A DNA stretch of 64,000 nt. It comes from Candidatus Tritonobacter lacicola. Its GTDB lineage: Bacteria; Auribacterota; Tritonobacteria; Tritonobacterales; Tritonobacteraceae. Shown one piece after another: positions 1,210 through 16,573 of the stretch. The notes under the pieces are model-generated. The model did not search any database. It saw nothing but the letters and a program-made list of their open reading frames with translations, and was not told the origin of the DNA. The position numbers and the translations under genes were made by a program. Numbering within the stretch: position 1 is the stretch's first letter; every line of letters begins with the position of its first letter. The stretch covers positions 1-64,000 of the forward strand of contig JAVCDC010000101.1 in the NCBI GenBank assembly GCA_030765135.1. Direction: 5' to 3'.

Positions 1210-1265
1210 AGCTAACCCGCCGCTCGAGCCGACGCGGTTCCCGCGGTCTCAGCTTTTCGTTAGCT
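1210..1265 (+). other. attC-like integron recombination site
   Basis: Directly after the HAD gene, AGCTAAC (1210-1216) and its exact complement GTTAGCT (1259-1265) enclose an imperfect hairpin. GCTCGAG on the left pairs with CTCAGC on the right leaving one unpaired C, and CGCGG pairs with CCGCG around a TTC loop. Two complementary core sites, unpaired spacers and a single extrahelical base on one arm are the structural hallmarks of integron attC sites; 56 bp is at the short end of the normal range. Confidence 0.75.
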
Positions 1266-1302
1266 GATTTTCAATCATCGATCACAAGAAAGGAGTATGA
1301 CG

Positions 1303-2835
1303 ATGAAACTACTCACCATGCTGAAATCATTCGGCTGCGCACTTGGCGGGATTGCTGTTTTCGCCGACCTGCCGGCGATGGCGAAAGAGAAGAAGCAGGA
1401 GAAACCCAATGTGGTATTCATCCTCGCCGATAACGTGGGCTACGGCGACATGGGTCCGTACGGTGGCGGAGAGCTTCGTGGAGCGCCGACGACGAACATT
1501 GATCGGCTCTCCCGCGAGGGTCTACGCTTAACACAGTATCTGGTGGAGCCCGCCTGCACACCATCGAGGGCGGCGCTGATGACCGGGCAATACTCGAACC
1601 GCAACGGCCTGTCGCTGGTCATCATGCCCGGTACCTCGAACACGCTCCCGGGCACGGCGTACACGATGGGGCAGTTGTTCAAGGGCGCAGGCTACGCCAC
1701 GGCCATCTATGGCAAATGGCACCTGGGCATCGCTCCGGAGAGCCTGCCGACGGCCCACGGATTCGACGAGTTCTACGGCCTCCCGCCCGACCTCACGTGG
1801 AACTGTTGCATTTCCCCCAGCACGATGGTGCTCACGCACTCGACTGACGAGTCACTCAGCGAGCTTCGTGAAGAGGGGCCGCATCTCTACGAGGCCGTTG
1901 CAAATGGTCCGTTGCGCAAGCTCAAACCGTACACGATGGAAGTTCGGCGCGAGATCGACTTTGAACTCACAAAGAAGGCCATCGACTTTATGGAGCGACA
2001 GACCGAGGCGGGCAAGCCGTTCTTCCTCTACCTGCCATTCTCGATGGGACATTATCCGAACCTCGCGTCGAAGCAGTTCGCGGGGAAGTCGCGGATCGGC
2101 CAGTATGGTGACAGGATGATGGAAGGCGACTACCACGTCGGCCAGATCCTCCAGGCACTGAAGGACCTCGAGATCGACGACAACACGCTTTTCGTCTTTG
2201 CCTCGGACAACGGGCCGCAAGGCGAGATCAATCGCGATCTGGGGAACCAGGGGACGCCGGACATGGGCAACACGGGTCCATTCCGGGGCGAGCTGGGCGA
2301 GGCAACCGAAGGCTCGATCCGAACATGTTGTTTCATCCGCTGGCCGGGCAAGGTCAAGCCGGGCACAACCTCGTATGCCATGTTCTCGATCATGGATTTC
2401 CTCCCGACCTTCGCCAATATCATTGGAGCCAAGATTCCGGACGACAGACCAATTGACGGCGTCGACCAGACCGACGTGCTGTTTGGCAAGAGCGAGGAGG
2501 GCGCGCGGGAGAGCCTGCTGACCTTCATCGGCGCGCACCTGGTGGCGGCGCGGTGGAAGCAATGGCGCATGTATTTCACCAACGTTCACCCGACCGGCCT
2601 CGGATTGCAGCGCATGGACGGCGTCCTCTCTGCCAGCGCGTCGTTGGCCTATCCGACGCTCTACAACATCGAAATGGACCCCCACGAGGATATTCAGGTC
2701 CCCGCCCAATTCCCCTGGGTCCAGGGGCTCGTCTTCAAGGAGATTGACAAGTACAAGGAGACCCTCAAGAAGTATCCGAACCCACCGCCGCCCAACATCA
2801 CGAAGATCCCGGCACCCGAACTCCAGAAGTTGTGA
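1303..2835 (+). CDS. Arylsulfatase, Cys-type (formylglycine-dependent), secreted
   Basis: Type I sulfatase of 510 aa with an N-terminal signal peptide. The core motif CTPSRAALMTG near residue 85 has the Cys that is oxidised to formylglycine; ADNVGYGD near residue 43 and SDNG further on supply metal ligands. The second Asp of the usual DD pair is Asn here, a variant I believe occurs in other sulfatases. An ATG at 1297 is only 1 nt from AGGAG (1291-1295), so the ATG at 1303 is the better start. The maturating enzyme is encoded 360 bp downstream. The gene is bracketed by GTTAGCTG (1259-1266) and its exact complement CAGCTAAC (2988-2995), the terminal signature of an integron cassette. Substrate unknown; sulfated polysaccharides or small sulfate esters are possible. 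Confidence 0.92.
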   Translation: MKLLTMLKSFGCALGGIAVFADLPAMAKEKKQEKPNVVFILADNVGYGDMGPYGGGELRGAPTTNIDRLSREGLRLTQYLVEPACTPSRAALMTGQYSNRNGLSLVIMPGTSNTLPGTAYTMGQLFKGAGYATAIYGKWHLGIAPESLPTAHGFDEFYGLPPDLTWNCCISPSTMVLTHSTDESLSELREEGPHLYEAVANGPLRKLKPYTMEVRREIDFELTKKAIDFMERQTEAGKPFFLYLPFSMGHYPNLASKQFAGKSRIGQYGDRMMEGDYHVGQILQALKDLEIDDNTLFVFASDNGPQGEINRDLGNQGTPDMGNTGPFRGELGEATEGSIRTCCFIRWPGKVKPGTTSYAMFSIMDFLPTFANIIGAKIPDDRPIDGVDQTDVLFGKSEEGARESLLTFIGAHLVAARWKQWRMYFTNVHPTGLGLQRMDGVLSASASLAYPTLYNIEMDPHEDIQVPAQFPWVQGLVFKEIDKYKETLKKYPNPPPPNITKIPAPELQKL

Positions 2836-3194
2836 GGGTATGTGGACTTCACAGTCCGGCTCCTGGGTCCGACAATGTGGCGTCTTGAAACGAGCCGTAC
2901 AGGGTTTCGGGTGCCGGCCGTCCTGTTTACCGCGAGGGCATTCACCGGTTAGGGAAAAGGCACAGACGTGGACAATTGCTGGCACGCCAGCTAACTATCC
3001 GTAGCATGCGGAGCTGCGGGCCGCGCGATTCAGGGAATAGGGAATAGAGAGGTCAAGAACACAGTTCCTATTCCCCATTCCCTACCCAATTCTCTATTTT
3101 CACTTCGTGCTCTTCGTGTCCTTCGTGGTTATATTCTCTCTTTTTCACTATAATGTGCTTTTAGGTGGGCTTTAATTCCAGACTCCCCATAGAT
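2836..3194. other. Spacer between sulfatase and maturase genes
   Basis: No gene seen. It holds CAGCTAAC at 2988-2995, which looks like the left core of a cassette attC whose right half is missing. Then follow AT-rich direct words (GGGAATAG) and an ACGAAG-type repeat at 3104-3132, which returns in inverted orientation at 4451-4469, just after the maturase gene. Confidence 0.6.
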
Positions 3195-4451
3195 ATGACC
3201 GATTACACAGAACAAAAACCTGCTCAGAAGCTCGTCGCCCATCTGATGGCCAAGCCGGCGGGACCGGACTGCAACCTCAACTGCGGCTACTGCTTCTACC
3301 TGGAGAAAGAAGCACTCTTCCCGGAAGGCGGCCGGTACCGGATGTCCGACGAGGTCCTGGAAACGTACATCCGGAAGACTGCGGAGTACCAGACCGTCCC
3401 CGAGCTTCTTTACGCCTGGCAGGGCGGCGAGCCGACACTGATGGGGATCGACTTCTTCAGGAAGGCGGTCGAACTGGAGAAACGGTACGCAGGAGGGAGG
3501 AGGATCGCAAACACGCTCCAGACCAACGGGATACTCATCGATGACGAGTGGTGCCGGTTTCTTGCCGAGAATAAATTTCTCGTGGGCCTCAGTCTCGACG
3601 GCCCGAAAGACGTCCATGACCGTTATCGGAAAGACCGGGGCGGCGAACCGACCTTCGACCGTGTCATGCGGGCCATGGATCTGTTGAAGAAACACGGGGT
3701 CGAGTTCAATATCCTCGCCTGCGTGACCCGGGAGTCAGCGAAGAGGCCGCTCGATGTCTACCGGTTTTTCAAGGAGCAGGGCGTCCGGTTCATCCAGTTG
3801 ATCCCTATCGTGGAACGGATGCCCGACACCGAGTCCGAACGGCTGGGGCTGAAGCTGGGCATGCCGGCATCCATCGATAATAGCGACGAACCGAACGTCA
3901 CCCCCTGGACTATGATCCCGGAAGACTACGGTGATTTCCTGATCGGCGTCTTCGACGAGTGGGTGAAGAATGATATCGGTTCCGTCTTCATCATGAACTT
4001 CGAGTGGTTCGTCGTTAACTGGATGGGGATGCTCCAGGCGAACTGCTTCTTCTCCGAGCGCTGCGGCCAGGCGGTCATCGTCGAGCACAACGGGGACGTC
4101 TACTCCTGCGATCACTTCGTCTACCCGAAATACCGTCTCGGGAACATCCTCGCCGGGGAACCGGGGGAGATGATCGACTCAGAAAAACAGCTCCGGTTCG
4201 GGGCGGTCAAGGAGGAGTCGCTCCCGAAGTACTGCCGGGAGTGCGACTTCCTCTTCGCCTGCCGGGGGGAGTGCCCCAAGCACCGTTTCCTGAAAACGCC
4301 GGACGGAGAGCCGGGACTGAACTACCTCTGTACCGGATATAAAAAATTCTTCAACCATGTCCGCCCCTACATGGACGCTATCGTCCAGACCATCCGGATG
4401 GGCTGCCCGGCGGAGAAGGTGATGGACCTGGTCCGGAAAGGGAAAATTTAA
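3195..4451 (+). CDS. Anaerobic sulfatase-maturating enzyme (radical SAM, SPASM domain)
   Basis: Radical SAM enzyme of 418 aa that oxidises the active-site Cys (or Ser) of sulfatases to formylglycine without oxygen. CNLNCGYCFY near residue 25 is the CxxxCxxC ligand set for the SAM-binding cluster. The C-terminal half has the SPASM-type cysteines (CGQAV, YSCDHF, CRECDFLFACRGECPKHR) that bind two auxiliary clusters. ATG 3195 is taken as the start; GTG 3165 is an in-frame alternative but adds no recognised sequence. Its obvious client is the CTPSR sulfatase just upstream, same strand. The gene is flanked by inverted copies of an ACGAAG-rich repeat (3114-3132 and 4451-4469), so it may have moved separately from the sulfatase. 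Confidence 0.93.
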   Translation: MTDYTEQKPAQKLVAHLMAKPAGPDCNLNCGYCFYLEKEALFPEGGRYRMSDEVLETYIRKTAEYQTVPELLYAWQGGEPTLMGIDFFRKAVELEKRYAGGRRIANTLQTNGILIDDEWCRFLAENKFLVGLSLDGPKDVHDRYRKDRGGEPTFDRVMRAMDLLKKHGVEFNILACVTRESAKRPLDVYRFFKEQGVRFIQLIPIVERMPDTESERLGLKLGMPASIDNSDEPNVTPWTMIPEDYGDFLIGVFDEWVKNDIGSVFIMNFEWFVVNWMGMLQANCFFSERCGQAVIVEHNGDVYSCDHFVYPKYRLGNILAGEPGEMIDSEKQLRFGAVKEESLPKYCRECDFLFACRGECPKHRFLKTPDGEPGLNYLCTGYKKFFNHVRPYMDAIVQTIRMGCPAEKVMDLVRKGKI

Positions 4452-4628: not shown

Positions 4629-4799
4629 ATGATGGATAAGTTTTCAAAAAACCTTCAGTCCGATAAAGACTTCATGGCGGTAGTTCAACTTATAAGGAGC
4701 GCGGGGGTCGAATCTTTCCTCTTTTTAATTGACGTTAGAAGGACAGGAGGCAGCGATTGGGGTCAAACCTATGCAATTGACAATTTGACCTATGAATAA
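4629..4799 (+). pseudogene. Possible truncated ORF running into a repeat
   Basis: A 56-codon frame starting MMDKFSKNLQSDKDF. The first 25 or so residues read like normal coding sequence. From 4702 the DNA matches the spacer repeat at 5866 (GGGGGTCGAATCTTTCCTC), so the C-terminal part is repeat-derived. It may be the 5' end of a gene cut by the repeat. No function recognised. Confidence 0.35.
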
Positions 4800-4800
4800 T

Positions 4801-4909
4801 AGGGGGCGGACCCACATAGCCAATCATTGAAAAACGAGAAAGGATCTTATACGGCAGATTCGGCCATTTCCCAGCCGCTTATACGGTCCGTATAAGACTA
4901 TGTTGGCTG
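4801..4909 (+). repeat. Dispersed repeat R1, copy a
   Basis: About 110 bp nearly identical to 5929-6036. Both copies contain ATCATTGAAAAACGAG and a hairpin with TCTTATACGG / CCGTATAAGA arms. Both end at a GTTRRRY-like core (here GTTGGCT) immediately before a gene, so R1 occupies the place of an attC right end. Weaker similarity extends upstream to 4702. Confidence 0.7.
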
Positions 4910-4930: not shown

Positions 4931-5479
4931 ATGACTTCAGAAATCGCTATCAGGAGCGAGACGAACGACGATATCGGAGCCATAGCCGAGGTGACGATCG
5001 CGGCGTTTCAGACCTTGGAGATTAGCAACCACACTGAGCAGTTTATCATCGAGGCACTGCGCGCCGCCAATGCCCTCACGATATCGCTCGTCGCAGACTT
5101 AGATGGTCGCATCGTAGGGCATATTGCGTTCTCGCCGGTGACCATTTCGGACGGCACACAGAATTGGTACGGACTTGGACCTGTTTCGGTCTTGCCGGAA
5201 TACCAGCGTCAGGGCATTGGCAAGGCCCTAATCCATGAGGGATTATCACGGCTGAAGAGCATGCACGCTCGGGGCTGTTGTCTCGTGGGGCAACCGGAGT
5301 ATTACAAGAAGTTCGGGTTCGATAACGTTCCGGAACTTGTCCATGGGGGAGTACCACCGGAAGTCTTTCTCGCACTGTCTTTCGACGGAAACATTCCGCG
5401 GGGTATTGTCACTTTCCACGAAGGATTCAAAGCGGATGGCCAACGAGAGCGTCCAGGCGACGCCTTACAGAGCGCCTGA
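4931..5479 (+). CDS. GNAT-family N-acetyltransferase
   Basis: 182-aa GCN5-related acetyltransferase. The acetyl-CoA motif A is visible as LGPVSVLPEYQRQGIGKALI (Q/RxxGxG/A type), preceded by beta strands with GHIAFSPVTI and followed by GCCLVGQPEYYKKFGF, as in YhbS-type putative acetyltransferases. Substrate unknown. The last dozen codons and the stop lie inside an attC-like hairpin (5438-5494), so the cassette's recombination site doubles as the gene's 3' end. GTTGGC before the gene (4902) matches GCCAAC (5439) as complementary cassette ends. Confidence 0.9.
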   Translation: MTSEIAIRSETNDDIGAIAEVTIAAFQTLEISNHTEQFIIEALRAANALTISLVADLDGRIVGHIAFSPVTISDGTQNWYGLGPVSVLPEYQRQGIGKALIHEGLSRLKSMHARGCCLVGQPEYYKKFGFDNVPELVHGGVPPEVFLALSFDGNIPRGIVTFHEGFKADGQRERPGDALQSA

Positions 5480-5494
5480 CGCTCAGCGTTATGC
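5438..5494 (+). other. attC-like integron recombination site overlapping the GNAT 3' end
   Basis: GCCAAC at 5439 pairs with the GTTGGC that opens this cassette at 4902. The arms GAGCGTCCAGGCG and CGCCTGACGCTC pair except for one extra C on the left, the extrahelical base expected of attC. GTTATGC at 5488-5494 is the right core and belongs to the next cassette. The GNAT stop codon is at 5477-5479, within the right arm. Confidence 0.8.
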
Positions 5495-5550: not shown

Positions 5551-5841
5551 ATGACAATCGAAGCTACAACCCTGCCTGATACCGAGGTGACCTGTGTAAA
5601 CTGCGAGGCCTGCTGTTGCCGTTTAGAAGTAAGGCTCATTACCGATACCGGAGTGCCCGATAATTTTATTGAGATAGATAAGTGGGGCGGGATGAGCATG
5701 GCGCGGCTAGAAGATGGCTGGTGTTCGGCCTTGGACCGAAACACCATGATTTGTATGATTTACGAGAAGCGGCCATGGATTTGCCGTGAATTTGAGATGG
5801 GAGGATACGAGTGTATTTCCGAGCGAGCCGCCAATCTGTAG
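5551..5841 (+). CDS. CxxCxxCC (YkgJ-type) metal-cluster protein
   Basis: 96-aa protein of the YkgJ/UPF0153-type zinc or iron chelating family. It shows CVNCEACCC near the N-terminus and CMIYEKRPWICREFEMGGYEC near the C-terminus, the two Cys groups typical of the family. Exact function is unknown in the family. The upstream core GTTATGCAA (5488-5496) is the exact complement of TTGCATAAC (5843-5851) right after the stop, so the gene sits alone in one cassette-like unit. Confidence 0.85.
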   Translation: MTIEATTLPDTEVTCVNCEACCCRLEVRLITDTGVPDNFIEIDKWGGMSMARLEDGWCSALDRNTMICMIYEKRPWICREFEMGGYECISERAANL

Positions 5842-5842
5842 A

Positions 5843-6036
5843 TTGCATAACAAGGCAAATGTAGGAAGGGGGTCGAATCTTTCCTCTTTACAATTGAGGC
5901 TGGAAGCACAGAAGTAACAGGATAATCGGGGGCGCGGACCTACATAACCAATCATTGAAAAACGAGAAAGGATCTTATACGGTAGATACGGCCATTTCCC
6001 GGCCGCTTATGCGGACCGTATAAGACTCTGTTAGGA
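5843..6036 (+). other. Cassette 3' end with repeat R1 copy b
   Basis: TTGCATAAC (5843-5851) complements the start of the preceding cassette, and GTTAGGA (6030-6036) starts the next one. Between them lie R1 copy b (5929-6036) and its upstream extension. At about 190 bp this is longer than a classical attC, and its central pairing is poorer apart from the TCTTATACGG-type hairpin. Confidence 0.6.
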
Positions 6037-6042: not shown

Positions 6043-6426
6043 ATGATCTTAGGAATTTTATTAATTTTGTGTGCCCTATTTATAGTTTATGTTGAGGGAG
6101 TTCAGCCATTTGCAATTTGGAATTGCGTTCCTGTAGCTATTGTTTATTTGATTATTAGGGTTGCATTAAAAAAAGCTGAGGGGGTGTGGCGAAATATGCC
6201 TCTCTCTCGTAGAATGGGACTGATTGGATTTAGTATTTTTACTCTTGCCTTTACTCTCTTTCTCCACTTTGCTTGGCTTTTTGATTTAGGGCAGATAGCA
6301 ACAAGTTCGTCAACCTCGGCTCTGATATTCATCTTCATTCCACCGTATTCGTTGGCCGCTGGTGGCATTGGCCTTTTTATTGGTTGGTTACTTGGAAGAG
6401 GGATTTCTTATACCATTCAGAGGTAG
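6043..6426 (+). CDS. Small integral membrane protein, unknown
   Basis: 127-aa protein with four hydrophobic segments (about residues 1-18, 22-40, 58-82 and 95-120), no recognised domain, and AT-rich codons compared with the core genes. The start ATG lies 6 bp after the core GTTAGGA (6030-6036). TCCTAAC follows the stop at 6446-6452 as its exact complement, so this looks like single-gene cassette cargo with unknown function. Confidence 0.7.
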   Translation: MILGILLILCALFIVYVEGVQPFAIWNCVPVAIVYLIIRVALKKAEGVWRNMPLSRRMGLIGFSIFTLAFTLFLHFAWLFDLGQIATSSSTSALIFIFIPPYSLAAGGIGLFIGWLLGRGISYTIQR

Positions 6427-6445: not shown

Positions 6446-6530
6446 TCCTAACCCTAATAAGGCCTCCAAGTGTCAATAAAGAAAAATAGGCAAAATCCTC
6501 CTGTCGCGGAAAAACAATATTTCACACGGG
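6446..6530 (+). repeat. Dispersed repeat R2, copy a
   Basis: Begins with TCCTAAC, then CTAATAAGGCCTCCAAGTGT, AATAGGCAAAATCCTCC and TGTCGCGGAAAAACAATATT. Four copies occur (also 8532, 11229, 16477), each starting just after a gene at an AAC, three of them at a RYYYAAC-like core. Confidence 0.8.
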
Positions 6531-6695: not shown

Positions 6696-7538
6696 ATGGA
6701 AGTCAGAGAGATCCCTGTAGATAAGATCATCGGCAGCCTCTGCCGCATGCGCCTCGAGTTCGACTATGAGAAGGAATCGCTCCTCATCTCCATAAAGGCG
6801 TCCGGCGTTCTCGACCCGATCAAGGTGAAGAAGACGCGTGGCGGCTACGTCCTCTTCGCAGGCCACCGCCGCCTCGACTGCGCGAGGGAGCTCAAGCACA
6901 AGACCGTCAGGGCCGAGGTGTGGGAGGGGCTCACCGACCAGAAGGCCGCCCTCATGGGCTTCGTGGAGAACATCAACCGCAAGGACTTCACGCCCCTGGA
7001 GGAGGGCTACGCGTACAAGAAGCTCGTCGAGGAGTACGGCTACGAGGTGGACGACCTGGTGGAGCCGTGCGCGAAGCCCCGCAGCAGGATCTACAAGCTC
7101 CTCAGGCTGATAGAGGATATGACGGAGGAGATGAAGCAGGCGATCCTCGCCGGCAAGATGAGTGTCGGCCACGCCCTCATCCTCCTGCGCATCAAGGACC
7201 TGAAGCTGCGCAAGAAGCTGTTTGGGGAGATCGTCGATGGTACGCTGAAGCTCGACGACCTGGAGTACATCCTCTACCGCCAGAAGCCCGACTCGAAGAA
7301 GAACAAGCGCGAGCTCCTTCTCGATATCGTGGAGGACGTGTACGAGAAGGACCCCGTCGTCCAGAAGATGTGGCTGAAGAGCGTCCACATCCACCGCAGC
7401 CAGAAGGGGGACAAGATCACGGTTGAGATCACCGGCCCCATGGACATTGTGGATAAGCTCGAGGCCCTCACAGAGCCGATAAAAAAGGCCCGGAAGCGTT
7501 TCAAGAAAGTGGTGGGGTGGGAAAACGACATCCCCTGA
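6696..7538 (+). CDS. ParB/RepB/Spo0J-family DNA-binding protein (orphan)
   Basis: 280-aa ParB-like protein. The N-terminal ParB domain carries GGYVLFAGHRRLDCAREL, the GxRR-type box that binds and hydrolyses CTP in the family, followed by VENINRKDFTPLEEGYAY and an HTH region (KPRSRIYKLLRLIEDM; SVGHALILLRI). Start at ATG 6696 is supported by AAAGGAGG just upstream; the frame is open to 6558 but the extension has no such site. There is no ParA partner and no obvious parS-like site nearby, so it is more likely a regulator or relic of a plasmid or phage than a working partition system. Its strongly GC-biased third positions contrast with the AT-rich neighbours, suggesting a separate origin. Confidence 0.85.
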   Translation: MEVREIPVDKIIGSLCRMRLEFDYEKESLLISIKASGVLDPIKVKKTRGGYVLFAGHRRLDCARELKHKTVRAEVWEGLTDQKAALMGFVENINRKDFTPLEEGYAYKKLVEEYGYEVDDLVEPCAKPRSRIYKLLRLIEDMTEEMKQAILAGKMSVGHALILLRIKDLKLRKKLFGEIVDGTLKLDDLEYILYRQKPDSKKNKRELLLDIVEDVYEKDPVVQKMWLKSVHIHRSQKGDKITVEITGPMDIVDKLEALTEPIKKARKRFKKVVGWENDIP

Positions 7539-8013
7539 AAAACATTCACTCCGCACTGATCAAATGTTCAAAAATAAATATTCGCATTCGCGCCAAATTT
7601 CCCGATTTTCAAAGTAATTTCAAGTAGTAGACCCCCAGTCTCAAGTTGAGACTGGAGACTAAAATCAATATTTATCTTGACACAGTTGTTGATGCCGCCC
7701 AGTGATAAGTGGGCCCGGACCTGCGTAACTCAGAGAGCCATCTTGGGCGCTGAACTATAATAATTCCGTATGGTGCCCCGGAATTCTCAGGTAAATAGGT
7801 TTCTCACTTTCGCACGAAAGTGAGAAACCCATCTGGACGGTAGATGAGTATGCTGTCTTCGGAATTATTCCCTGGAATTACCACGGCTCAGAGGTTCCCA
7901 CGACTGGGAGTACTCCACCCCGGAGGTGGGGCAGGTCGTCTGTTGATGATGCACACGAACATCGATCGAATATTTTTATTGCAATCGCACTACAATATAC
8001 TTACAGTGTAAAT
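7539..8013. other. Spacer with palindromes
   Basis: No gene seen. A perfect 15-bp stem hairpin (7798-7829; GGTTTCTCACTTTCG and its complement) sits inside a larger element with GGAATT and AATTCC ends. A CCACCCCGGAGGTGG hairpin follows near 7916. The same TTCTCACTTTCG hairpin recurs at 56368-56393. Confidence 0.6.
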
Positions 8014-8307
8014 ATGGGCAGAATAACCTTTAATTGGAGCGAGCAAAAGAACAAGGCAAATCAGAAGAAGCATGGAGTTTCTTTTGAAGAGGCCCAAACA
8101 GTGTTTTTCGATGAGAACGCCATTGAGTTCTTCGACCCGGATCATTCAGAAACAGCAGATAGATTCCTCATGCTCGGGCTCAGTGTTCGTTTGAGAATCC
8201 TTGTGATTTGTCATTGTTATCGCGAGAGTAATTTTGAGATTAGAATCATCTCTGCTCGTAAAGCAACTAAGAAAGAGCAACAAAGCTACTCAAGAGGTGG
8301 AAAATGA
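8014..8307 (+). CDS. brnT: BrnT-family toxin (ribonuclease), type II TA
   Basis: 97-aa BrnT toxin. FNWSEQKNKANQKKHGVSFEEAQTVFFD near the N-terminus and RIISARKATKKEQQSY near the C-terminus are the family signatures. BrnT has a RelE-like fold and cuts RNA to stop growth. The stop overlaps the BrnA start (ATGA, 8304-8307), the usual toxin-first arrangement. A further cassette-like TA module lies 500 bp downstream. Confidence 0.92.
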   Translation: MGRITFNWSEQKNKANQKKHGVSFEEAQTVFFDENAIEFFDPDHSETADRFLMLGLSVRLRILVICHCYRESNFEIRIISARKATKKEQQSYSRGGK

Positions 8308-8522
8308 GAAAAGAATACGACTTCTCGAAACTCAAGGGCAGGAAGAACCCCTATGCCAAGCATCTCAAGAAACAAGTCACAATCCGCATGGGTGTTGACA
8401 TTATTGACTACTTTAAAGCCATGGCAGAGCAGACAGGTATACCCTATCAAAACCTGATCAACCTGTATCTGCGTGACTGCGTACAACACCACCGCGAGTT
8501 ATCCCTAAAGTGGGTTTCCTGA
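8304..8522 (+). CDS. brnA: BrnA-family antitoxin (ribbon-helix-helix)
   Basis: 72-aa antitoxin starting MRKEYDFSKLKGRKNPYAK, a typical BrnA opening, followed by the ribbon-helix-helix DNA-binding segment KQVTIRMGVDIIDYFKAMAEQTGIPYQNLINLYL. It should bind and neutralise BrnT and repress the shared promoter. It overlaps brnT by 4 bp. Repeat R2 copy b begins about 10 bp after its stop. Confidence 0.92.
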   Translation: MRKEYDFSKLKGRKNPYAKHLKKQVTIRMGVDIIDYFKAMAEQTGIPYQNLINLYLRDCVQHHRELSLKWVS

Positions 8523-8531
8523 ATAAGCTGC

Positions 8532-8590
8532 AGAACCCTTATAATTCCTCCAAGTGTCAATTAAGAAAAATAGGCAAAATCCTCCTTTCT
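8532..8590 (+). repeat. Dispersed repeat R2, copy b (truncated)
   Basis: AGAACCCTTATAATTCCTCC, AAGTGTCAATTAAG and AATAGGCAAAATCCTCC match the first 55 bp of R2; similarity stops at CTTTCTG, before the GTCGCGG part found in the other copies. Confidence 0.75.
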
Positions 8591-8644
8591 GTTAATTGTA
8601 TCTTCCAAAACGATGATACCGTATAGGTGTAGGGAGGAGGGGGC

Positions 8645-8710
8645 CTTAAACAGTATCAAGTCGCAGCAGCCGGCCGCCTCTGGCGGCGGCTGAGCGGCAA
8701 ACCGTTATAT
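8645..8710 (+). other. attC-like integron recombination site
   Basis: Left core CTTAAAC (8645-8651). AGCCGGCCGCC and GGCGGCGGCT form a stem with one extra G on the left, extended by GTCGCAGC against GCTGAGCGGC. Right core is GTTATAT (8704-8710). It separates the BrnTA unit from the Phd-RelE unit. Confidence 0.65.
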
Positions 8711-8798: not shown

Positions 8799-9005
8799 AT
8801 GAGTGCCATGCCGGAACTTTCGCCGCAGTTTGTTACTGATAAGAATGGGAAGAAAACTGCCGTAATCCTTTCCATTGAGGAATACAATGCTCTCGTTGAA
8901 GACCTGCGGGACCTTGCCTCAATTGTAGAGCGCCGGGAGGAATCTTCTATCTCTCACGAGCAGGTTGTGGCGGAGTTGAAGAAAGATGGCTACCTACAAG
9001 ATTGA
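8799..9005 (+). CDS. Phd/YefM-type antitoxin
   Basis: 68-aa antitoxin: SPQFVTDKNGKKTAVILSIEEYNALVEDLRDL is the Phd/YefM (prevent-host-death) core that binds DNA, and the C-terminal half with SISHEQVVAELKKDG would wrap the toxin. GAGGAGGCAAAGTCA precedes the ATG. It overlaps the toxin gene by 20 bp in another frame. The pair is enclosed by GTTATATCA (8704-8712) and TGATATAAT (9247-9255), nearly complementary cassette ends. Confidence 0.88.
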   Translation: MSAMPELSPQFVTDKNGKKTAVILSIEEYNALVEDLRDLASIVERREESSISHEQVVAELKKDGYLQD

Positions 9006-9249
9006 GTGGAAGCCTTCAGCTATAAAAGAACTCAGGAAGATCGATCGGCCCCTAATTCCTCGATTAACAAAAGCAGTTGAAGCTCTTTCCTCCAATCCTT
9101 TCCCTTCAGGTGCTCGCAAACTAAGAAGTGGCGAGCATTCCTACCGCATTCGTGTCGGAGACTATCGGGTTATTTACACCGTCTTTAGGCGTCAGTCCAC
9201 GATAACCATCTTTCGTGTGAGACATCGCAAAGAAGTATACAGAGCTTGA
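8986..9249 (+). CDS. RelE/ParE-family toxin
   Basis: 87-aa RelE-superfamily toxin: YKIEWKPSAIKELRKID at the N-terminus, then SSNPFPSGARKLRSGEHSYRIRVGDYRVIYTV and a C-terminal FRVRHRKEVYR. The RIRVGDYRVIY strand and the final basic RHRKEVYR are hallmarks of RelE-type ribosome-dependent mRNA interferases. It overlaps the antitoxin gene, so the two are translationally coupled. The TGA stop is also the start of the cassette-end sequence TGATATAAT. Confidence 0.92.
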   Translation: MATYKIEWKPSAIKELRKIDRPLIPRLTKAVEALSSNPFPSGARKLRSGEHSYRIRVGDYRVIYTVFRRQSTITIFRVRHRKEVYRA

Positions 9250-9563: not shown

Positions 9564-10259
9564 ATGACATACCCTTGGTATTATAACGAAACGGTTACAC
9601 TCAACGTGGACTTCCATGATCCGAAAGAGGTCGAGGAATATGATGAGCGGATGGGTAAGCTCAGGAATGTGGCCGCAGAAGCGGAGGAGATAGCGGAGGA
9701 CCTTGCGCTCTCTCCGGATTCGACAGTATGGGAGATCGGAACCGGTACGGGGGAGTGCAGCCTTGCGCTTGCCTCCCGATGCAGGCGGATCTATGCAACG
9801 GATATCTCCAGGGCTATGCTTGCGTATGCCCGCAGGAAAAAGGAAGAGCGTCGGGTCAACAACGTAGTCTTTGAAGTCGGAGGATTTCTTTCCGGTTTTC
9901 AGCCGGAGTGCGGCGTCAACGGCATAGTCTCGCAGTTGGCCCTCCACCACCTTCCCGATTTTTGGAAGTCGATGGCATTTAAAGTAGTCTCGAAAAAGCT
10001 CCTCCCGAATGGTCGGTTTTACTTGAGAGACGTGATCTTTCCATCCGACATCGATAACTACGATTCTTTCTTCGCACAGGCGGTAGAAGGCATGAGGGCA
10101 AGAGCTGGGGATGAGATGGCCCGGAGGACGATCCAGCACATCAGGAAAGAATATTCAACATTGGACTGGATACTTGAGGGAATGATGGAGCGCAATGGGC
10201 TGAAGATTGTCAAGAAGGAGAGCGAAGGTTTCTTGACGGTCTATGTGTGTGAAAAATGA
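9564..10259 (+). CDS. Class I SAM-dependent methyltransferase
   Basis: 231-aa methyltransferase. Motif I VWEIGTGTGECSLALA near residue 54 binds SAM, followed by an acidic strand end ATDIS and the post-motif region VSQLALHHLPDF, typical of class I enzymes (Methyltransf_11/25 type). The N-terminal YYNETVTLNVDFHDPKEVEEYDERM resembles a small group of uncharacterised methyltransferases; the substrate is not predictable. A perfect integron core GTTAAGC lies 45 bp upstream; the expected complement after the stop was not found. Confidence 0.88.
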   Translation: MTYPWYYNETVTLNVDFHDPKEVEEYDERMGKLRNVAAEAEEIAEDLALSPDSTVWEIGTGTGECSLALASRCRRIYATDISRAMLAYARRKKEERRVNNVVFEVGGFLSGFQPECGVNGIVSQLALHHLPDFWKSMAFKVVSKKLLPNGRFYLRDVIFPSDIDNYDSFFAQAVEGMRARAGDEMARRTIQHIRKEYSTLDWILEGMMERNGLKIVKKESEGFLTVYVCEK

Positions 10260-10623: not shown

Positions 10624-10686
10624 ACCGAACCACGGGTTTCACTTGACCGTCGCTAATGCGCCGGCAAGTGAACCCGGACGTTCGGG
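10624..10686 (+). other. attC-like integron recombination site
   Basis: Clear attC architecture in 63 bp: left core ACCGAAC (10624-10630), right core GTTCGGG (10680-10686), with CCGAAC and GTTCGG complementary. CGGGTTTCACTTG pairs with CAAGTGAACCCG leaving one extra T on the left arm, then CCG/CGG and CGC/GCG close toward a short loop. It opens the HicAB unit. Confidence 0.82.
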
Positions 10687-10745: not shown

Positions 10746-11000
10746 ATGGATAAATATGAAAAATTGCATCGGTTTATCCTGTTACGTCAATCGGACGCGA
10801 ACATTCCTTTCTCGGAACTCTGTCAGTTGATGAAACGTCTTGGATTTAGAGAGAGAATCAAGGGAGACCATCACATATTCACGAAAGCTGGAATTGAGGA
10901 GATTCTAAATCTTCAGCCCAAGGGGACGAAAGCAAAGTCTTACCAAGTCAAGCAGGTTCGGAATGTGATCCTGCGTTACGGACTTACATTAGGAGAGTGA
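10746..11000 (+). CDS. HicA-like toxin
   Basis: 84-aa protein if started at ATG 10746; the frame is open to 10656 but the extension overlaps the attC-like site. LCQLMKRLGFRERIKGDHHIFTKAG carries the GDHHIF motif with the catalytic His of HicA mRNA interferases, and NLQPKGTKAKSYQVKQVRNVIL matches the double-stranded-RNA-binding-like fold's end. It overlaps hicB by 4 bp, toxin first, as in canonical hicAB. Confidence 0.85.
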   Translation: MDKYEKLHRFILLRQSDANIPFSELCQLMKRLGFRERIKGDHHIFTKAGIEEILNLQPKGTKAKSYQVKQVRNVILRYGLTLGE

Positions 11001-11215
11001 AGATGGATAGAAAGTACGAAATTATCATTTTCTGGAGCAAAGAAGACGATGCCTTCCTGGCAGAGGTACCAGAACTGCCCGGTTGTATGGCTGATGGCAA
11101 GACCTATCAAGAAGCTCTTGCGAATGCAGAAAAGATTATCGAAGAGTGGATCGAGATAGCAAAAGAAGAAGAAAGGTCAATTCCTCAGCCCAAAGGTCGC
11201 CTTATATATGCGTAA
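10997..11215 (+). CDS. HicB-like antitoxin
   Basis: 72-aa HicB-family antitoxin: YEIIIFWSKEDDAFLAEVPE then LPGCMADGKTYQEALANAEK is the partial RNase-H-like fold typical of HicB. This is the short form without a C-terminal DNA-binding domain. It should bind and block the HicA product. GCTTAAC and repeat R2 copy c follow 14 bp after the stop. Confidence 0.92.
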   Translation: MKMDRKYEIIIFWSKEDDAFLAEVPELPGCMADGKTYQEALANAEKIIEEWIEIAKEEERSIPQPKGRLIYA

Positions 11216-11228: not shown

Positions 11229-11330
11229 GGCTTAACACTTATAAAGCCTCCAAGTGTCAATAAAGAAAAACAGGCAAAGCTCACCTTGTCGCGGAAAAAC
11301 AATATTTCCCACGTTATTGATTCCACGACG
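11229..11330 (+). repeat. Dispersed repeat R2, copy c
   Basis: Starts with the perfect RYYYAAC core GCTTAAC, then ACTTATAAAGCCTCC and TGTCAATAAAG, and ends TTTCCCACGTTATTGATTCC. It is full-length, matching 16477-16573 through the GTTATTGATTCCAC end. Confidence 0.8.
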
Positions 11331-11595
11331 ACACCGGAAAAGCAAAGAATGTCCTGACTTGATTTCTCAAACGTAGCTGGCTGCAACCATGTTCCACCTA
11401 CGAGGTGGCCCAGGGTAAGTGCTTGGAACTTAGATCATTAGAATTCTACAACTTGCACAGGCCCGGGGAAACGGGGAACGGGTCCCACCGAAAAAAACCC
11501 GGGATCGGCGAACAATAATTTTACGGAAACGTACTCCATACAGGAATACTATCACGGGGTGAGAAGCTGCTCCGTACCACTGGGAGGAAACGCGC
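11331..11595. other. Spacer with repeat R3 copy a
   Basis: No gene seen. R3 copy a (about 11391-11475): CCACCTACGAGGTGG hairpin, CCAGGGTAAGTGCTTGGAAC, TTAGATCATTAGAATTC, ACAACTT and CCCGGGGAAACGGG. Related copies lie at 14604-14645 and 15569-15635, and a head fragment near 56219. Confidence 0.65.
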
Positions 11596-14526
11596 ATGAA
11601 GATACTGCAATCGTTTGCACAAGAGGGGATTTACCACTGTAAATTGTACATCTCTATCTTTCTGAGTCTCCTCGTCATTATCTCCTTGCACTCGCCGGAT
11701 GCCGCATTCGCGGAGGAAGAAGCGGACGAAGGAGGCTCGGCCTCGCTGGTCATCACGGTCAGCGATGAAGACGGCGCACCAATCGAGGGCGCGAAAATAA
11801 CGCTCTATTCATTCAAGAAGACGATGGACCATACGGGATGCTGGACAGGAAGCTCCAGTGGGGAGGACAAAGGACCCACGCCCGCCGATGGCTCGGTCAC
11901 AATCGAGGGTCTGAAACCCGGCACGTATGTGCTTAAAGTCCAGGCGGATGGCTACATTCCGGGCAAGCTGACGGACATTGTTCTTATCGATGGTGATGAA
12001 AAACAGGTTGAGATAAGTCTCCCACAGGGAGAGCAACCGATCTCCGGGCAGGTAGTTGACGAGGAGGGACAGCCGATTCCGGACACCTTCGTAAGCTTTT
12101 ATATCTCCAAGAAGGGCTTCTTCTTTCGAGATTACATCTACAAGCACGATTCCGACAAAGAGGGAAGGTTCCAGTGCGACGGGCTTGAGGCGGGAGTGTA
12201 CAACATCGACTTCCGTAAAGAGGGATTCTTGAAGAAAGAGCTGCAGAAAATCCCTGCCGGCACGACCGATCTCAAGGTGGTCCTGGAGAGAGGATGTGCG
12301 CTCTCCGGCGCCATCCTTACCACCGAGGGTACCGTCCCCGGCGAGCGGGTCAGAATACGGATCAAGAGAGCACGGAGAAGCGGCAGCAAGAACGTCGAGC
12401 TCGACGAAAGCGGCCGCTATCGACTGGAAGCGGTGGAGCCTGGAAAGATCAGTCTCTCGGCCGAGACCGAGTCCCTTACCTCGACGAAGGTTAAGAAAGT
12501 CAAATTGAAAATCGGCCAGGAGCTCGAGGGAATTGATTTCGTTCTCTATCCGGGTTTATCGATCTCGGGAAGGGTGTCTTCCTCAGCCGACGGTGCCCCC
12601 CTCGCGGGCGTATCCGTTTCCGCAAAAGACAAAAAAAAGAACATATGGAGACATGATAAAACCGGTGACGACGGTGAATACTCTATTTCACGGCTCTACC
12701 CGGGGCTCTACACCGTCGTCCCGAATGTTGGCTCGGGGAGGGACAGGAGCAAAATAGAACAGAAAGTCGAGCTCGAACCCGGAGAGGGCAAACGGGATGT
12801 CGATTTTACCGTCGAGCTTCCGCCCAAAATAACAATAAGCGGCAGAGTGGTCACGGAAAGCGGCTCCCCTGCCCCGCGTGCCCGGATCGATGTTATCACG
12901 TTCAGAAAAAAAGATGATGAACGCGGGAGGCAGCCCTCCATGTTTCCCCTTACCCACTCAGATGATGACGGCGAGTTCGCCTTCCAGATAAACCGATTCC
13001 CCAAGGTCATCGTGCTGGCCAGGGACGAGGACCACGCGTGGTCCCAGGGCCAGCCCATACTTACCGAAGACCATACGGCAGAGTACGAGGTTACGATCAC
13101 GCTGGAAAGAGGCATGGCGATCGCCGGCGTGGTAAAGGACCAGCTCCTGCAGCCCCTCAAAGGCGCGACCATTTCTCTCTTCAGCGGAAGAAGGACCTTC
13201 GAGAGGAATAAAATCTGGCGGCCGATAGCGGAAGCGTCCACGGACGAAGAGGGCGGTTACCAGCTCGAACATGTTTCTCTCGGGCAAAACACGCTCGTGG
13301 CTTCCATGGAAGGATTTTCCCGGGAATCCCAGTTCATAGCCTGCGGCCCCGGCTCGCCGGAACACGGCTATGATTTTGTCTTGAATCCCGGCGCAAAGAT
13401 ATACGGTTACGTCAAAGACGAGCGCGGACGGCCCGTGGCGAAAGCACGGGTCCACTGTACCGGGGAGACCGCGCCGGGTTATGCGATATGGAAAAGCCGC
13501 CTCAAAACGGACACGACAGGCTACTTTGAATACGGAAATCTGGCGCAGGGGTCGTATAAATTATGGGTGCGCCACCCCGATTTCTGCGACGTTCGTAAGA
13601 AGAATGTATATCCGGATGACAAACCCCTCCCCATAACTCTGAAAAAGGGGCAGAAGCTGTCGGGCAGGGTTCTCTCCGCCGACACGAATGAACCGGTCAA
13701 GGATTACGAGATCAGGATGGAGAAGAAAGCAAGCCCGGGAGAGTGGAAGCGGGTTTCCTTCCCCCGCCCCCTGGTTAGCTATGAAGCCGGGGGCGAGTTC
13801 GTAGTTGAGCACCTAGAAGAGGGAAAATACAAAGTCGCCGTTGAGGCTGACGGTTACGCCTCGGCGAAAGCAGGCCCCCTGACCATCCCCCCCAAGAAGA
13901 AATTCAAACCGCTCGTCATCGCCCTGAAGAAAGGCTATACCGTGGGCGGAACGGTCCGCGCGAAAGATACCGGCAAACCGGTCGAAAGGGTGAAGGTTTA
14001 TGTCCTGGACCCCGAACAACCGCCCCAGAATCTCGAGGATCGAATTCTGGGGTACGATTGGACGAGCAGCGTGGGAAAGTTCAGAGTCAGCGGTCTCGGG
14101 AAAGGTGACTGGTCGCTGCTCACCAACAAGCGGGGTTACTCCCACTATCAAATGGAGCATCTGCCGCCGGGCGACAACCCCTCCGCCCAGGCACTGGAAA
14201 TCAACCTCGAAACCGATCCGGATGAGCTCTCCCCCGATGAATGGCGCATGAGTGGGTTGGGCTTCTCCATGGAGCCGGACAAGGAAGACAAGAAGGTTCT
14301 CATTAAGAAGGTCTACGAGGGCAGCGCTGTGCAGCAGGGCGGTCTCAGGCCGGGAGACCACCTCGTCGCGATCAACGGCGAGGATGTCATCGCCCCTTTG
14401 CATGCTATTTATATACTGCGCTCTCCGGGATATGAGGTAACGCTGAAAGTCACGAGGGAGGGAGAAGAAAGCCCCCTCGAGATGAAAATCGAAAAAGGGA
14501 AAGGCTACGACCCGCTCCTCTGGTAA
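11596..14526 (+). CDS. Large secreted protein of repeated carboxypeptidase-regulatory-like domains with C-terminal PDZ
   Basis: 976-aa secreted protein. A hydrophobic signal segment (residues 17-40, ending AAFA) is followed by about nine tandem Ig-like units of roughly 90 aa of the CarboxypepD_reg type. Each has a phrase like ISGRVVDEEGQPI, a DDDGEYSI-type turn and GLYTV or GKYKV. A PDZ domain fills residues 885-970, with AVQQGGLRPGDHLVAINGED. The architecture suggests a periplasmic or surface scaffold that binds peptides or C-termini through PDZ. GGGAGGAAACGCGC precedes the ATG. Codon use matches the GC-rich core genes, so although it lies inside the cassette region it may be a resident gene. 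Confidence 0.8.
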   Translation: MKILQSFAQEGIYHCKLYISIFLSLLVIISLHSPDAAFAEEEADEGGSASLVITVSDEDGAPIEGAKITLYSFKKTMDHTGCWTGSSSGEDKGPTPADGSVTIEGLKPGTYVLKVQADGYIPGKLTDIVLIDGDEKQVEISLPQGEQPISGQVVDEEGQPIPDTFVSFYISKKGFFFRDYIYKHDSDKEGRFQCDGLEAGVYNIDFRKEGFLKKELQKIPAGTTDLKVVLERGCALSGAILTTEGTVPGERVRIRIKRARRSGSKNVELDESGRYRLEAVEPGKISLSAETESLTSTKVKKVKLKIGQELEGIDFVLYPGLSISGRVSSSADGAPLAGVSVSAKDKKKNIWRHDKTGDDGEYSISRLYPGLYTVVPNVGSGRDRSKIEQKVELEPGEGKRDVDFTVELPPKITISGRVVTESGSPAPRARIDVITFRKKDDERGRQPSMFPLTHSDDDGEFAFQINRFPKVIVLARDEDHAWSQGQPILTEDHTAEYEVTITLERGMAIAGVVKDQLLQPLKGATISLFSGRRTFERNKIWRPIAEASTDEEGGYQLEHVSLGQNTLVASMEGFSRESQFIACGPGSPEHGYDFVLNPGAKIYGYVKDERGRPVAKARVHCTGETAPGYAIWKSRLKTDTTGYFEYGNLAQGSYKLWVRHPDFCDVRKKNVYPDDKPLPITLKKGQKLSGRVLSADTNEPVKDYEIRMEKKASPGEWKRVSFPRPLVSYEAGGEFVVEHLEEGKYKVAVEADGYASAKAGPLTIPPKKKFKPLVIALKKGYTVGGTVRAKDTGKPVERVKVYVLDPEQPPQNLEDRILGYDWTSSVGKFRVSGLGKGDWSLLTNKRGYSHYQMEHLPPGDNPSAQALEINLETDPDELSPDEWRMSGLGFSMEPDKEDKKVLIKKVYEGSAVQQGGLRPGDHLVAINGEDVIAPLHAIYILRSPGYEVTLKVTREGEESPLEMKIEKGKGYDPLLW

Positions 14527-14603
14527 GCGCTCTATCGATCACCCGCGAGGAAGGCAGGTAATCAGGGTTGTACCTACGTAACTAATTGAAGATGAAAAAA
14601 GTT

Positions 14604-14645: not shown

Positions 14646-14725
14646 AACCGGGAGACGAGATAGAGGGCGGCGCTCCTGGTAAGCGCCCCCCGCACATACA
14701 AAAACAGCTAAAAAGGAGGTATGCA

Positions 14726-14821
14726 ATGGGAGACAAAGGCAAGAAGGATAAGGACAAACGCCAGAAGCAAAAGTCAAAAAAGCATGAACAAAAAGCAAAA
14801 AGGAAAGGAAATAAGTTCTAA
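14726..14821 (+). CDS. Very small lysine-rich basic protein
   Basis: 31 residues beginning MGDKGKKDKDKRQKQKSKK; nearly half are Lys or Arg, with no hydrophobic core. AAAAGGAGGT ends about 6 nt before the ATG, a strong ribosome binding site, which argues that this tiny frame is translated. Short MGDKG-type Lys-rich proteins are, from memory, annotated in many genomes without known function. An RNA- or ribosome-associated role is possible from charge alone. An attC-like site follows at 14849. Confidence 0.65.
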   Translation: MGDKGKKDKDKRQKQKSKKHEQKAKRKGNKF

Positions 14822-14848
14822 GTATTGTATTTAACCACAGGCTAAAAA

Positions 14849-14956
14849 GCTTAACCAGATGTTGCAACTTACCCCGAAAGCGTTCGAGCGGAAACCCTGA
14901 TCGAAGGTCGGGGCTTCGCCCCCTTGGTTGGGGTTCCGCTCAACTCGCCGTTAGAT
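14849..14956 (+). other. attC-like integron recombination site
   Basis: Left core GCTTAAC (14849-14855, perfect RYYYAAC) and right core GTTAGAT (14950-14956, perfect GTTRRRY). GAGCGGAAACCC pairs with GGGTTCCGCTC with one unpaired A on the left, enclosing GGGGCTTCGCCCC. The right end CTCAACTCGCCGTTAG is shared with the site ending at 15768. Confidence 0.75.
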
Positions 14957-15014
14957 GACGTAGTATTAAAATTCTATTGTATATACATTTGTCTTACGCT
15001 ATAATAAGGCTATA

Positions 15015-15275
15015 ATGAAAGAAATAAAATGGAGTTTGCTTAAAAGTGAGCGGTTAAAAAGAACAAGGGGTGTGTCCTTTGAAGATATCATTAGGGGAAA
15101 GTTGATTGGCGTTAAAAAGCATCCCTCGAAAAAGAATCAGTATATTATGTTATTTGAGTACAAAAGGTACATTTGGGTGGTCCCATACGTTTTCGAGAAG
15201 GACTATATTTTTCTAAAGACATTATTCCCGAGCAGGAAATATACAAAGGAGTATCTGAAGAGGAGGAAAAGATGA
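15015..15275 (+). CDS. BrnT/RelE-like toxin of a TA pair
   Basis: 86-aa protein with the layout of small BrnT-like toxins: WSLLKSERLKRTRGVSFEDI, then a turn with HPSKKNQYIMLFEYKRYIWV, VPYVFEKDYIFLKTLFPSRK and a basic C-terminus. The SRKYTKEYLKRR end resembles related toxin families. It overlaps the following ribbon-helix-helix gene by ATGA, supporting a type II module. Sequence is notably AT-rich. The pair lies between GTTAGATGACG (14950) and complementary ATCATCTAA or TATCTAA sequences downstream. Confidence 0.72.
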   Translation: MKEIKWSLLKSERLKRTRGVSFEDIIRGKLIGVKKHPSKKNQYIMLFEYKRYIWVVPYVFEKDYIFLKTLFPSRKYTKEYLKRRKR

Positions 15276-15523
15276 GCAGAAATATTAAATTAACAAAGCA
15301 GGAGAAAGAGATAGAGAAAGTATTGTTAAGCGGAGAATTCGTCGACGTTGACAAAAAGGAGCTAGAAGAGATTTCCAAGGTAATAGCCAGGCGAAAGAAA
15401 GATGCTGTGTTGAATATTCGCGTGAATAGTCAGGACTTAGAGAGCATTAAACGCAAGGCGAAGAAACTTGGAATAAAATACCAGACCTTTATATCTGAAC
15501 TCCTTCATAAGGTGGCACTTTAA
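15272..15523 (+). CDS. Ribbon-helix-helix (CopG-like) antitoxin
   Basis: 83-aa antitoxin. The C-terminal half, AVLNIRVNSQDLESIKRKAKK then LGIKYQTFISELLHKV, is a ribbon-helix-helix DNA-binding segment of the type often paired with BrnT-like toxins. The N-terminal half (SRNIKLTKQEKEIEKVLLSG) would contact the toxin. ATG 15272 has AGGAGG immediately upstream and overlaps the toxin stop. It should autoregulate the pair. Confidence 0.8.
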   Translation: MSRNIKLTKQEKEIEKVLLSGEFVDVDKKELEEISKVIARRKKDAVLNIRVNSQDLESIKRKAKKLGIKYQTFISELLHKVAL

Positions 15524-15824
15524 TAATTAATGTATCATCTAATATTTCTAATGAAAGTTAGTATTTGTGCCCAGGGTAAATACTGGAACTTAGATCATTA
15601 GGATTCAACAACTTCGCAGGTCCGACCCGGGGAAACGGGATGGAGGCACAGGGAAGGATACAGTATTATCTAAGTAAACAAGCGCTGAGCGACCATCCAA
15701 TAAAAACAAGGTGAAGACTCTCCATCTTTCACCCCAAGTTGTGGGTTCCGCTCAACTCGCCGTTAGGCTGCGCAAGAACGATACGGCATCCGAAGATATT
15801 CACATATCAATCTGGAGGTGAAGT
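15524..15824. other. Spacer: R3 copy c and attC-like site
   Basis: No gene. Holds ATCTAAT (15537-15543), R3 copy c (15569-15635) and the attC-like site described separately. A short leader follows before the CAT-like gene, with TGGAGGTGA just ahead of its ATG. Confidence 0.65.
15668..15768 (+). other. attC-like integron recombination site
   Basis: ATCTAAG (15668-15674) nearly complements the opening core GTTAGATGACG of its cassette at 14950. GCTGAGCGACC faces GGGTTCCGCTCAAC, and GGTGAAGA...TCTTTCACC forms the apical hairpin. Right core GTTAGGC (15762-15768) is a perfect GTTRRRY and begins the next cassette. Confidence 0.68.
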
Positions 15825-16469
15825 ATGCGGCATATTCACCTGGGGACTTGGCCACGACGCGAGCTTTTCAAGGTTTTTAGCACTTGGGACTATCCACACT
15901 TCAGCATGTGTGTAAATGTAGACATGACAGCATTCTATCATGTTGTCAAGCAGCGTGGCATTTCGTTTACCGTGGCCACAGTGTACATACTTGCACGAGC
16001 AGCGAACGCAATTCCTGAGTTCCGGTATCGCATTCGGCAGGGAGAGGTGGTAGAGCACGAGATCGTACACCCATCTACAACTATTTTAACTAATGAGGAT
16101 TTGTTCAGCTTCTGTAAGATTGACTATGTTGAGGATTTCTCGGAGTTTGCAGCGAGAGCTGCAGACAAGATCGCCTGCGTGCAAGAGCATCCGACGCTGG
16201 AATACGATCCGGAACGAGATGACTTGTTGTTCATGACTGCGATCCCTTGGGTGTCGTTCACAAGCTTTATGCATCCGCTCCATTTGCATCCAGCGGATTC
16301 TTTGCCACGGTTTGCGTGGGGGAAGTTCTTCGAAGAGGGCAAGTTCTTGAAGATGCCGTTGAGTGTGCAAGCACATCATGCACTAATGGATGGAATACAC
16401 ATGGGGAGATTCTTTGCAAAAGTGCAAGGCTACTTACAACAGCCGGGGATCGTGCTAGGTGAAATATAG
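15825..16469 (+). CDS. Type A chloramphenicol O-acetyltransferase-like protein
   Basis: 214 aa, the normal length of type A CATs. The catalytic motif QAHHALMDGIHMGRFF (HHxxxDG) is intact near residue 186, and IPWVSFTSFMHP plus FAWGKFF match the family. Related proteins either acetylate chloramphenicol with acetyl-CoA or are untested homologues, so resistance cannot be asserted from sequence. The gene is enclosed by GTTAGGCTGCGC (15762-15773) and its exact 12-bp reverse complement GCGCAGCCTAAC (16472-16483), the clearest cassette ends in the window. Acetyltransferases and CATs are classic cassette cargo. Confidence 0.88.
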   Translation: MRHIHLGTWPRRELFKVFSTWDYPHFSMCVNVDMTAFYHVVKQRGISFTVATVYILARAANAIPEFRYRIRQGEVVEHEIVHPSTTILTNEDLFSFCKIDYVEDFSEFAARAADKIACVQEHPTLEYDPERDDLLFMTAIPWVSFTSFMHPLHLHPADSLPRFAWGKFFEEGKFLKMPLSVQAHHALMDGIHMGRFFAKVQGYLQQPGIVLGEI

Positions 16470-16471
16470 GT

Positions 16472-16573
16472 GCGCAGCCTAACACTTATAAGGCCTCCAT
16501 GTGTCAATAAAGAGGAATAGGCTAAATCCTCCTGTCGCGGAAAAGCAATATTTCCCACGTTATTGATTCCACA
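16472..16573 (+). repeat. Cassette 3' core plus dispersed repeat R2, copy d
   Basis: GCGCAGCCTAAC at 16472-16483 is the 3' core of the CAT cassette. R2 copy d then follows and ends TTTCCCACGTTATTGATTCC, as in copy c. It is the last array-type element; the following genes are GC-rich and lack attC-like spacers. Confidence 0.8.

Follow-up and report, generated by a model that had tools for sequence, protein, structure and literature searches.

Does a run of cassette-like genes with no integrase beside it represent a piece of an integron, and what has become of the rest? The question is raised by the window analyzed here, i.e., the whole stretch of 64,000 nucleotides from Candidatus Tritonobacter lacicola (the first 64 kb of the 79-kb contig C59, from a 3.21-Mb draft genome of 148 contigs, 94% complete). 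An earlier note made from its letters alone, hereafter the original prediction, described an integron-type gene-cassette array with six attC sites and no visible integrase. Our analysis indicates that the first 16.6 kb are very probably the downstream part of a chromosomal integron array that was probably severed from its integrase by the assembly, is decaying, and has been overlaid by an insertion sequence (IS) that homes to attC sites. The integron-type nature of the array was borne out because sites match an independent attC covariance model, the cores at cassette ends complement each other, and a toxin-antitoxin cassette (BrnT/BrnA) has a counterpart in a distant genome, with the similarity running precisely to R''. 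Absent from the earlier account were the IS ends and miniatures at four sites and two long repeats that are candidates for atypical attCs.

We have searched the window with a covariance model (R1, comprising R stem, L stem and bulge) built from 27 aligned attC sites located beside integrase genes in other genomes; the 80 source loci encode close relatives of the integron integrase of this genome. The use of independent genomes for training makes this a non-circular test of the attC claim. Both strands were scanned with the filters off. A hand-made attC scanner was dropped in favor of the model, as it gave an excess of chance matches and its sites could not be ranked. R1 found four matches, all on the plus strand:

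1210 to 1265, plus strand: attC site 1, canonical, with an extrahelical base (35.4 bits, E 5e-6)
5438 to 5494, plus strand: attC site 2, canonical (29.1 bits, E 1e-4; fold z -3.5)
10624 to 10686, plus strand: attC site 3, canonical, the strongest (40.9 bits, E 2e-7; fold z -6.8)
14866 to 14956, plus strand: degenerate attC with right core GTTAGAT (17.6 bits, E 0.07)

The covariance search, as had been advised, was not at background level overall: three sites scored 29–41 bits, against a top score of 12.1 bits in the remaining 47 kb (17–64 kb). From the six sites originally listed, those at 10624, 1210 and 5438 are therefore strong, the one at 14849 persists as the weak match at 14866–14956, with a degenerate left core, and those at 8645 and 15668 were unmatched by R1 over the whole window and both strands. 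An Rfam search of the window gave no match that reached the gathering threshold. When the bottom strands of the three strong sites were folded as DNA, attC-like hairpins with unpaired extra bases appeared; at 1210 the R stem has 7 bp, each spacer has 5 nt and the L stem is bulged.

The cores at the cassette ends point in the same direction. We calculated p as the probability that a GTT taken at random from this contig is matched, over the same distance, by a complement of equal length. The complement extends over 13 bp for the cores 15762/16483 (p 0.0016), 9 bp for 5488/5851 (p 0.003), 7 bp for 6030/6452 (p 0.018) and 8 bp for 1259/2995 (p 0.021), while p is 0.088 for 4902/5444. The claim that the core opening a unit is complementary to the one closing it held for five of the six pairs evaluated (p <=0.09) and failed for the pair after 10680; the pair proposed at 8704/9247 reads TGATATAAT, not AAC. 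It could be argued that chance hairpins or ordinary repeats resemble attC sites in a normal chromosomal neighborhood rich in toxin-antitoxin pairs, since the hand-made scanner scores many places in the control part about as highly and half of the six listed sites have a weak match to the model or none. However, scores of 29–41 bits over a background of 12, the 13- and 9-bp core complements, the cassette whose match in another class stops precisely at R'' and the presence of intI in the genome make this explanation extremely improbable, and for 1210, 5438 and 10624 it is already refuted.

The shared cassette is the following:

7968 to 8537, plus strand: BrnT/BrnA toxin-antitoxin cassette, first bases missing (PF04365, PF14384)

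This unit is 93.5–94% identical over 570 bp to a sequence on contig C207 of G031, a genome of the same phylum and another class, and the similarity stops exactly at the AAC of R''. In G031 it starts with GTTCTGCAGC, closes with GCTGCAGAAC and belongs to an array with different neighboring cassettes. The cassette was not found in the 6 same-class genomes searched. Judged from these sequences, its sharing across classes argues for cassette mobility between genomes. No conserved gene order was seen in relatives, where the flanking locus is itself not alignable because the gene next to the array (17978–20257) has no ortholog among 18 relatives.

Where, then, is the integrase? No IntI is encoded within the window, as had been stated, but the same genome has two intI genes, on contigs C6 and C24, each with an attI. 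The intact one (C6, 83–1084; 333 aa; TIGR02249, 470 bits versus a cut-off of 265) lies on a contig of 5.7 kb that begins 3 bases beyond the crossover of its attI, so that the array of C6 has been cut off. The second (C24, 16998–18012; 89–93% identical to the first) is split into two overlapping frames by an extra base in an A-run (L016:2515-2530), a frameshift that may reflect a genuine mutation or an error of sequencing. It adjoins its own array, in which attC scores reach 56 bits. Over the whole genome R1 gave 19 attC matches on 7 contigs (C24, C26, C28, C59, C61, C68 and C131), with more on C52.

The array region begins at base 1 of C59, so that an assembly break at this contig end has probably truncated the array. 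Array pieces leave contig ends outward at four places (C6, both ends of C26, and C61) and inward at four (the window, C28, C52 and C131). From their positions and strands, we infer that this is the pattern expected from four arrays each split once. The competing explanation, which concerns only this assembly-cut part of our reading, is a true orphan attC cluster (CALIN) whose own integrase was never present or was lost, i.e., a relic at a separate site. Most array pieces of this genome have no intI nearby, an attI-like stretch on C68 has none either, and IS insertions and half attCs point to decay. C59 itself holds at least two attC sites without a nearby intI, yet it starts inside an array, which runs off the contig start, and the four outward and four inward pieces are those expected of assembly-split arrays; draft assemblies are documented to break integrons into pieces that pass wrongly for CALINs (PMC9024848). 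We therefore regard a true orphan cluster as possible but somewhat doubtful. In an assembly-severed array, and following general integron biology, IntI would have folded each attC on its bottom strand, adding the cassettes successively between the G and the TT of the right core; the window array would have belonged to the intI of C6 or that of C24.

The second layer of this region is a repeat of 82 nt (D1), with four copies in the window (at 6447, 8531, 11231 and 16478) and others on C24 and C68 and in the relatives G031, G013 and G004. D1 is the right end of an IS110/IS1111-family element sitting between the R'' box and the attC hairpin. The window copies are one 120-nt miniature and three truncated ends, and longer copies are found elsewhere:

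6453 to 6528, plus strand: right-end fragment of the IS (D1; repeat and junction comparison)
7799 to 7965, plus strand: internal remnant of the same IS family (93% identical to an IS remnant on C131)
8531 to 8537, plus strand: R'' core GCAGAAC of the interrupted attC (empty version in G031: GCAGAAC followed by CAAGCGCTCAAGCAGACC)
8538 to 8657, plus strand: 120-nt miniature IS in the attC, both ends with inverted repeats, transposase absent (also on C24)
8658 to 8710, plus strand: L''-L'-R' part of the interrupted attC, originally listed as site 8645 (bulged hairpin, fold z -2.9)
11237 to 11371, plus strand: right-end fragment of the IS (87% identical to the C68 copy)
16484 to 16572, plus strand: right-end fragment of the IS, the right end of the array (repeat comparison)

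Site 8645 is thus the right half of an attC, from which the 120-nt insertion splits off the true left core GCAGAAC. Every right-end copy of the family lies directly after the AAC of a left core. The opposite end, found 120 nt on at 8531 and on C24, reads ...GGAGGCCTTAAACAGTATC, and beyond it lie a spacer of 5 nt and the L''-L'-R' hairpin of an attC; five loci have the junction CAGTATC, then the 5-nt spacer and L'' hairpin. The IS ends are subterminal inverted repeats (TAAGGCCTCC) with ATACTG and CAC outside them, one base being ambiguous. Insertion takes place at a single attC position, in a single orientation and with no target duplication, as indicated by the junctions and by one near comparison of an empty and a filled site: the BrnT/BrnA attC is uninterrupted in G031 (GCAGAAC followed by CAAGCGCTCAAGC) and interrupted in the window (GCAGAAC followed by CCTTATAA at one border, CAGTAT followed by CAAGTCGCAGC at the other).

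In G031 the same ends delimit a stretch of ~700 bp in which a remnant of the transposase is encoded on the opposite strand, and contigs C131 (MKFYTIQHKFYCGVDLHARSMYVCII) and C61 hold the start of the same protein, truncated. The G031 remnant is 36–43% identical to annotated IS110 family transposases on marine plasmids and 51–52% identical to unannotated copies on two Candidatus Manganitrophus plasmids, where the same right end is found after GGCCTAAC or GGCCGAAC. Elements of Alteromonas, Vibrio and Pseudoalteromonas also terminate at an RYYYAAC-like core. The attC model gave no match on the plasmid IS110 relatives as they stand, as expected if the IS splits the attC. The D1 pattern had no exact match in a collection of 84,980 species genomes, and the IS110 transposase on C85 of this same genome has no D1-type ends in the 2.2 kb around it. 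We also considered that D1 is part of the attC itself, an additional hairpin arm native to a new, long type of site that would be read by IntI. It does start at a left core complementing the previous right core (C24, window 6446 and 16472, G031), and its two ends, being inverted repeats, could fold. But the same ends bracket the IS110-type remnant in G031 and flank the truncated transposase starts on C131 and C61, identical right-end junctions lie beside IS110-like transposases on the Candidatus Manganitrophus plasmids, and an uninterrupted attC exists after the same cassette. Such an arm is very unlikely, and the new attC type was dropped given the transposase remnant and the empty site.

IS1111 elements known to target attC form the IS1111-attC group, for which ISKpn4, ISPst6, ISPa21 and ISPa25 are named in passages of PMC11187229 and PMC11616780 citing Post and Hall 2009 and Tetu and Holmes 2008. 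The IS1111 elements that insert at one end of attC carry subterminal repeats, separated from the element ends by 7 (or 6) and 3 bp, cause no duplication and use a guide RNA (PMC11187229). As far as sequence comparison goes, the element described here fits the points that could be compared: an IS110/IS1111 (DEDD) transposase, subterminal inverted repeats, one attC end, one orientation and no target duplication. It differs in having its transposase as remnants, in the ~52% identity of the Candidatus Manganitrophus relative and in the 120-nt miniatures. The element enters an attC between the AA(C) of the R'' box on one side and the 5-nt spacer with the L'' hairpin on the other, the target presumably being chosen by a guide RNA as in the studied IS1111 elements. 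The miniatures look like products of internal deletion between CCTCC repeats, other copies lost their left end together with the remainder of the attC, and the insertions may disable their attCs and so freeze the array. That the miniatures are non-autonomous members of this attC-homing family moving in trans (miniature inverted-repeat transposable elements, MITE) is a tentative and rather unlikely idea; if true, two site-specific systems acting on the same attC would shape the arrays of this lineage.

Two further repeats are found at cassette ends, where their right cores open the next cassette:

4813 to 4908, plus strand: candidate atypical attC, D2 copy 1, right core GTTGGC (fold z -2.3; recurrence)
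5941 to 6036, plus strand: candidate atypical attC, D2 copy 2, right core GTTAGGA (91% identical to copy 1)
15662 to 15768, plus strand: D6, 3' part of a long atypical attC type, right core GTTAGGCTGCGC (two more copies on C68)

The D2 repeat starts at 4802 and 5930 and has three copies on C52, and D6 is present at 14849 and 15668 and on C68. Site 15668 of the original prediction is the 3' part of the long atypical attC type that recurs on C68. The left spacer of D2 is far longer than usual and the loop of D6 reaches ~190 nt on C68. Each may be a genuine long variant of attC or, alternatively, an attC that other insertions have modified. Upstream of the D2 copies there is another repeat, GGGGGTCRAATCTTTCCTCTT (window 4703–4749 and 5868–5914; C52 near 9765), which resembles the ends of REP/Y1-type elements.

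Several observations weigh against our interpretation. Strong attCs are just three in 16.6 kb, D2 and D6 have nil or weak R1 scores, and the cores after 10680 mismatch. The units at 3.0–4.7 kb and 11.4–14.5 kb lack an attC and may simply be chromosomal inserts of the ordinary kind, and no read or long contig links the window to C6 or C24. As for the IS, the empty and filled sites form a near, not exact, pair (common up to R'', with different right-hand hairpins), the transposase is present in this genome as remnants only, with no intact copy having these ends, and a Pfam search of the remnant found no match.

Like a sedentary chromosomal integron or a CALIN (in IntegronFinder terms; PMC9024848), the region has attCs recognized by a covariance model, cassettes on one strand, toxin-antitoxin and acetyltransferase cargo, and a TIGR02249-family integrase in the genome. 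It differs in that the integrase is on other contigs, that long atypical repeats take the place of several attCs or an IS interrupts them, and that the lineage is uncultured. As described for group II introns in attC, an attC of the C68 array, outside the window, holds the truncated 5' part of one just before its right core (L025:8855-9115; RF02001, 33.5 bits). Each component is already known in kind, and the novelty lies in how they are combined, in the miniatures and in the lineage. These data add a multi-array integron system in an uncultured phylum, with a cassette shared between classes. They also document an IS family that homes to attC: it offers one near pair of empty and filled sites, its copies occur on Candidatus Manganitrophus plasmids, and its relatives in marine Gammaproteobacteria are similarly placed. 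Moreover, assembly breaks and IS insertions make arrays seem integrase-free and conceal attC sites from standard searches.

The remaining genes of the array region, all on one strand as predicted and with one or two per unit, are:

165 to 1199, plus strand: cassette gene, HAD-family hydrolase (PF12710/PF00702)
1297 to 2835, plus strand: cassette gene, sulfatase (PF00884)
3195 to 4451, plus strand: anaerobic sulfatase maturase (TIGR03942, 502 bits)
4931 to 5479, plus strand: cassette gene, GNAT acetyltransferase (PF13527)
5551 to 5841, plus strand: cassette gene, CxxCxxCC metal-chelating protein (PF03692)
6043 to 6426, plus strand: cassette gene, membrane protein, left core TCCTAAC at 6446–6452 (no Pfam or NCBIfam match)
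6696 to 7538, plus strand: ParB-like gene (PF02195, PF17762)
8799 to 9249, plus strand: Phd-YefM/ParE toxin-antitoxin pair (PF02604/PF18506, PF05016)
9564 to 10259, plus strand: methyltransferase gene (PF13649)
10746 to 11215, plus strand: HicA/HicB toxin-antitoxin cassette, left core GCTTAAC ending at 11236 (PF07927, PF15919)
11596 to 14526, plus strand: 976-aa carboxypeptidase-regulatory-like/PDZ protein, own attC not seen (PF13620 x8, PDZ)
14726 to 14821, plus strand: open reading frame for 31 aa, lysine-rich, common to C68 (198-bp match, 90%)
15015 to 15523, plus strand: toxin-antitoxin-like pair, an 86-aa unknown and a CopG antitoxin (PF12441)
15825 to 16469, plus strand: cassette gene, CatA-like acetyltransferase (PF00302; NCBIfam CatA below cut-off)

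The sulfatase cassette retains the left core CAGCTAAC at 2988–2995 and has lost the remainder of its attC, and the CatA-like cassette has its left core, GCGCAGCCTAAC, at 16472–16483. The maturase, with attC boundaries absent, is likely not a cassette; the sulfatase, of the Cys type (CTPSR), lies directly 5' of it, and the maturase is its expected activating enzyme. The 3' part of the ParB-like gene and the sequence downstream are also found on C52 (94% over 354 bp), and a ParB-like gene with 53% identity to it adjoins the intI of the relative G031 (C364; L181:3334-4143). Relatives of the pair at 15015–15523 are located near integrons on C68, L074, L087 and L096.

Some minor observations concern the other integrons and repeats. 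The attI-like stretch of C68 (L025:4680-4700; GCTCAATCAATAG followed by TTCGATT) opens an array without intI, and the first cassette core, ATCGAAC, complements it. In the C24 array, one canonical attC (L015:10686-10756) is oriented opposite to the rest. A contig filed as a metagenome-assembled genome of Klebsiella pneumoniae (L109), probably misbinned, encodes an IntI 59% identical to the one described here. Finally, a dispersed palindrome resembling GTTTCTCACTTTCGCGCGAAAGTGAGAAAC is found in the window at 7799–7828 and 56367–56399, and also at L183:5358-5385 and L177:6390-6417, a relative being included among these.

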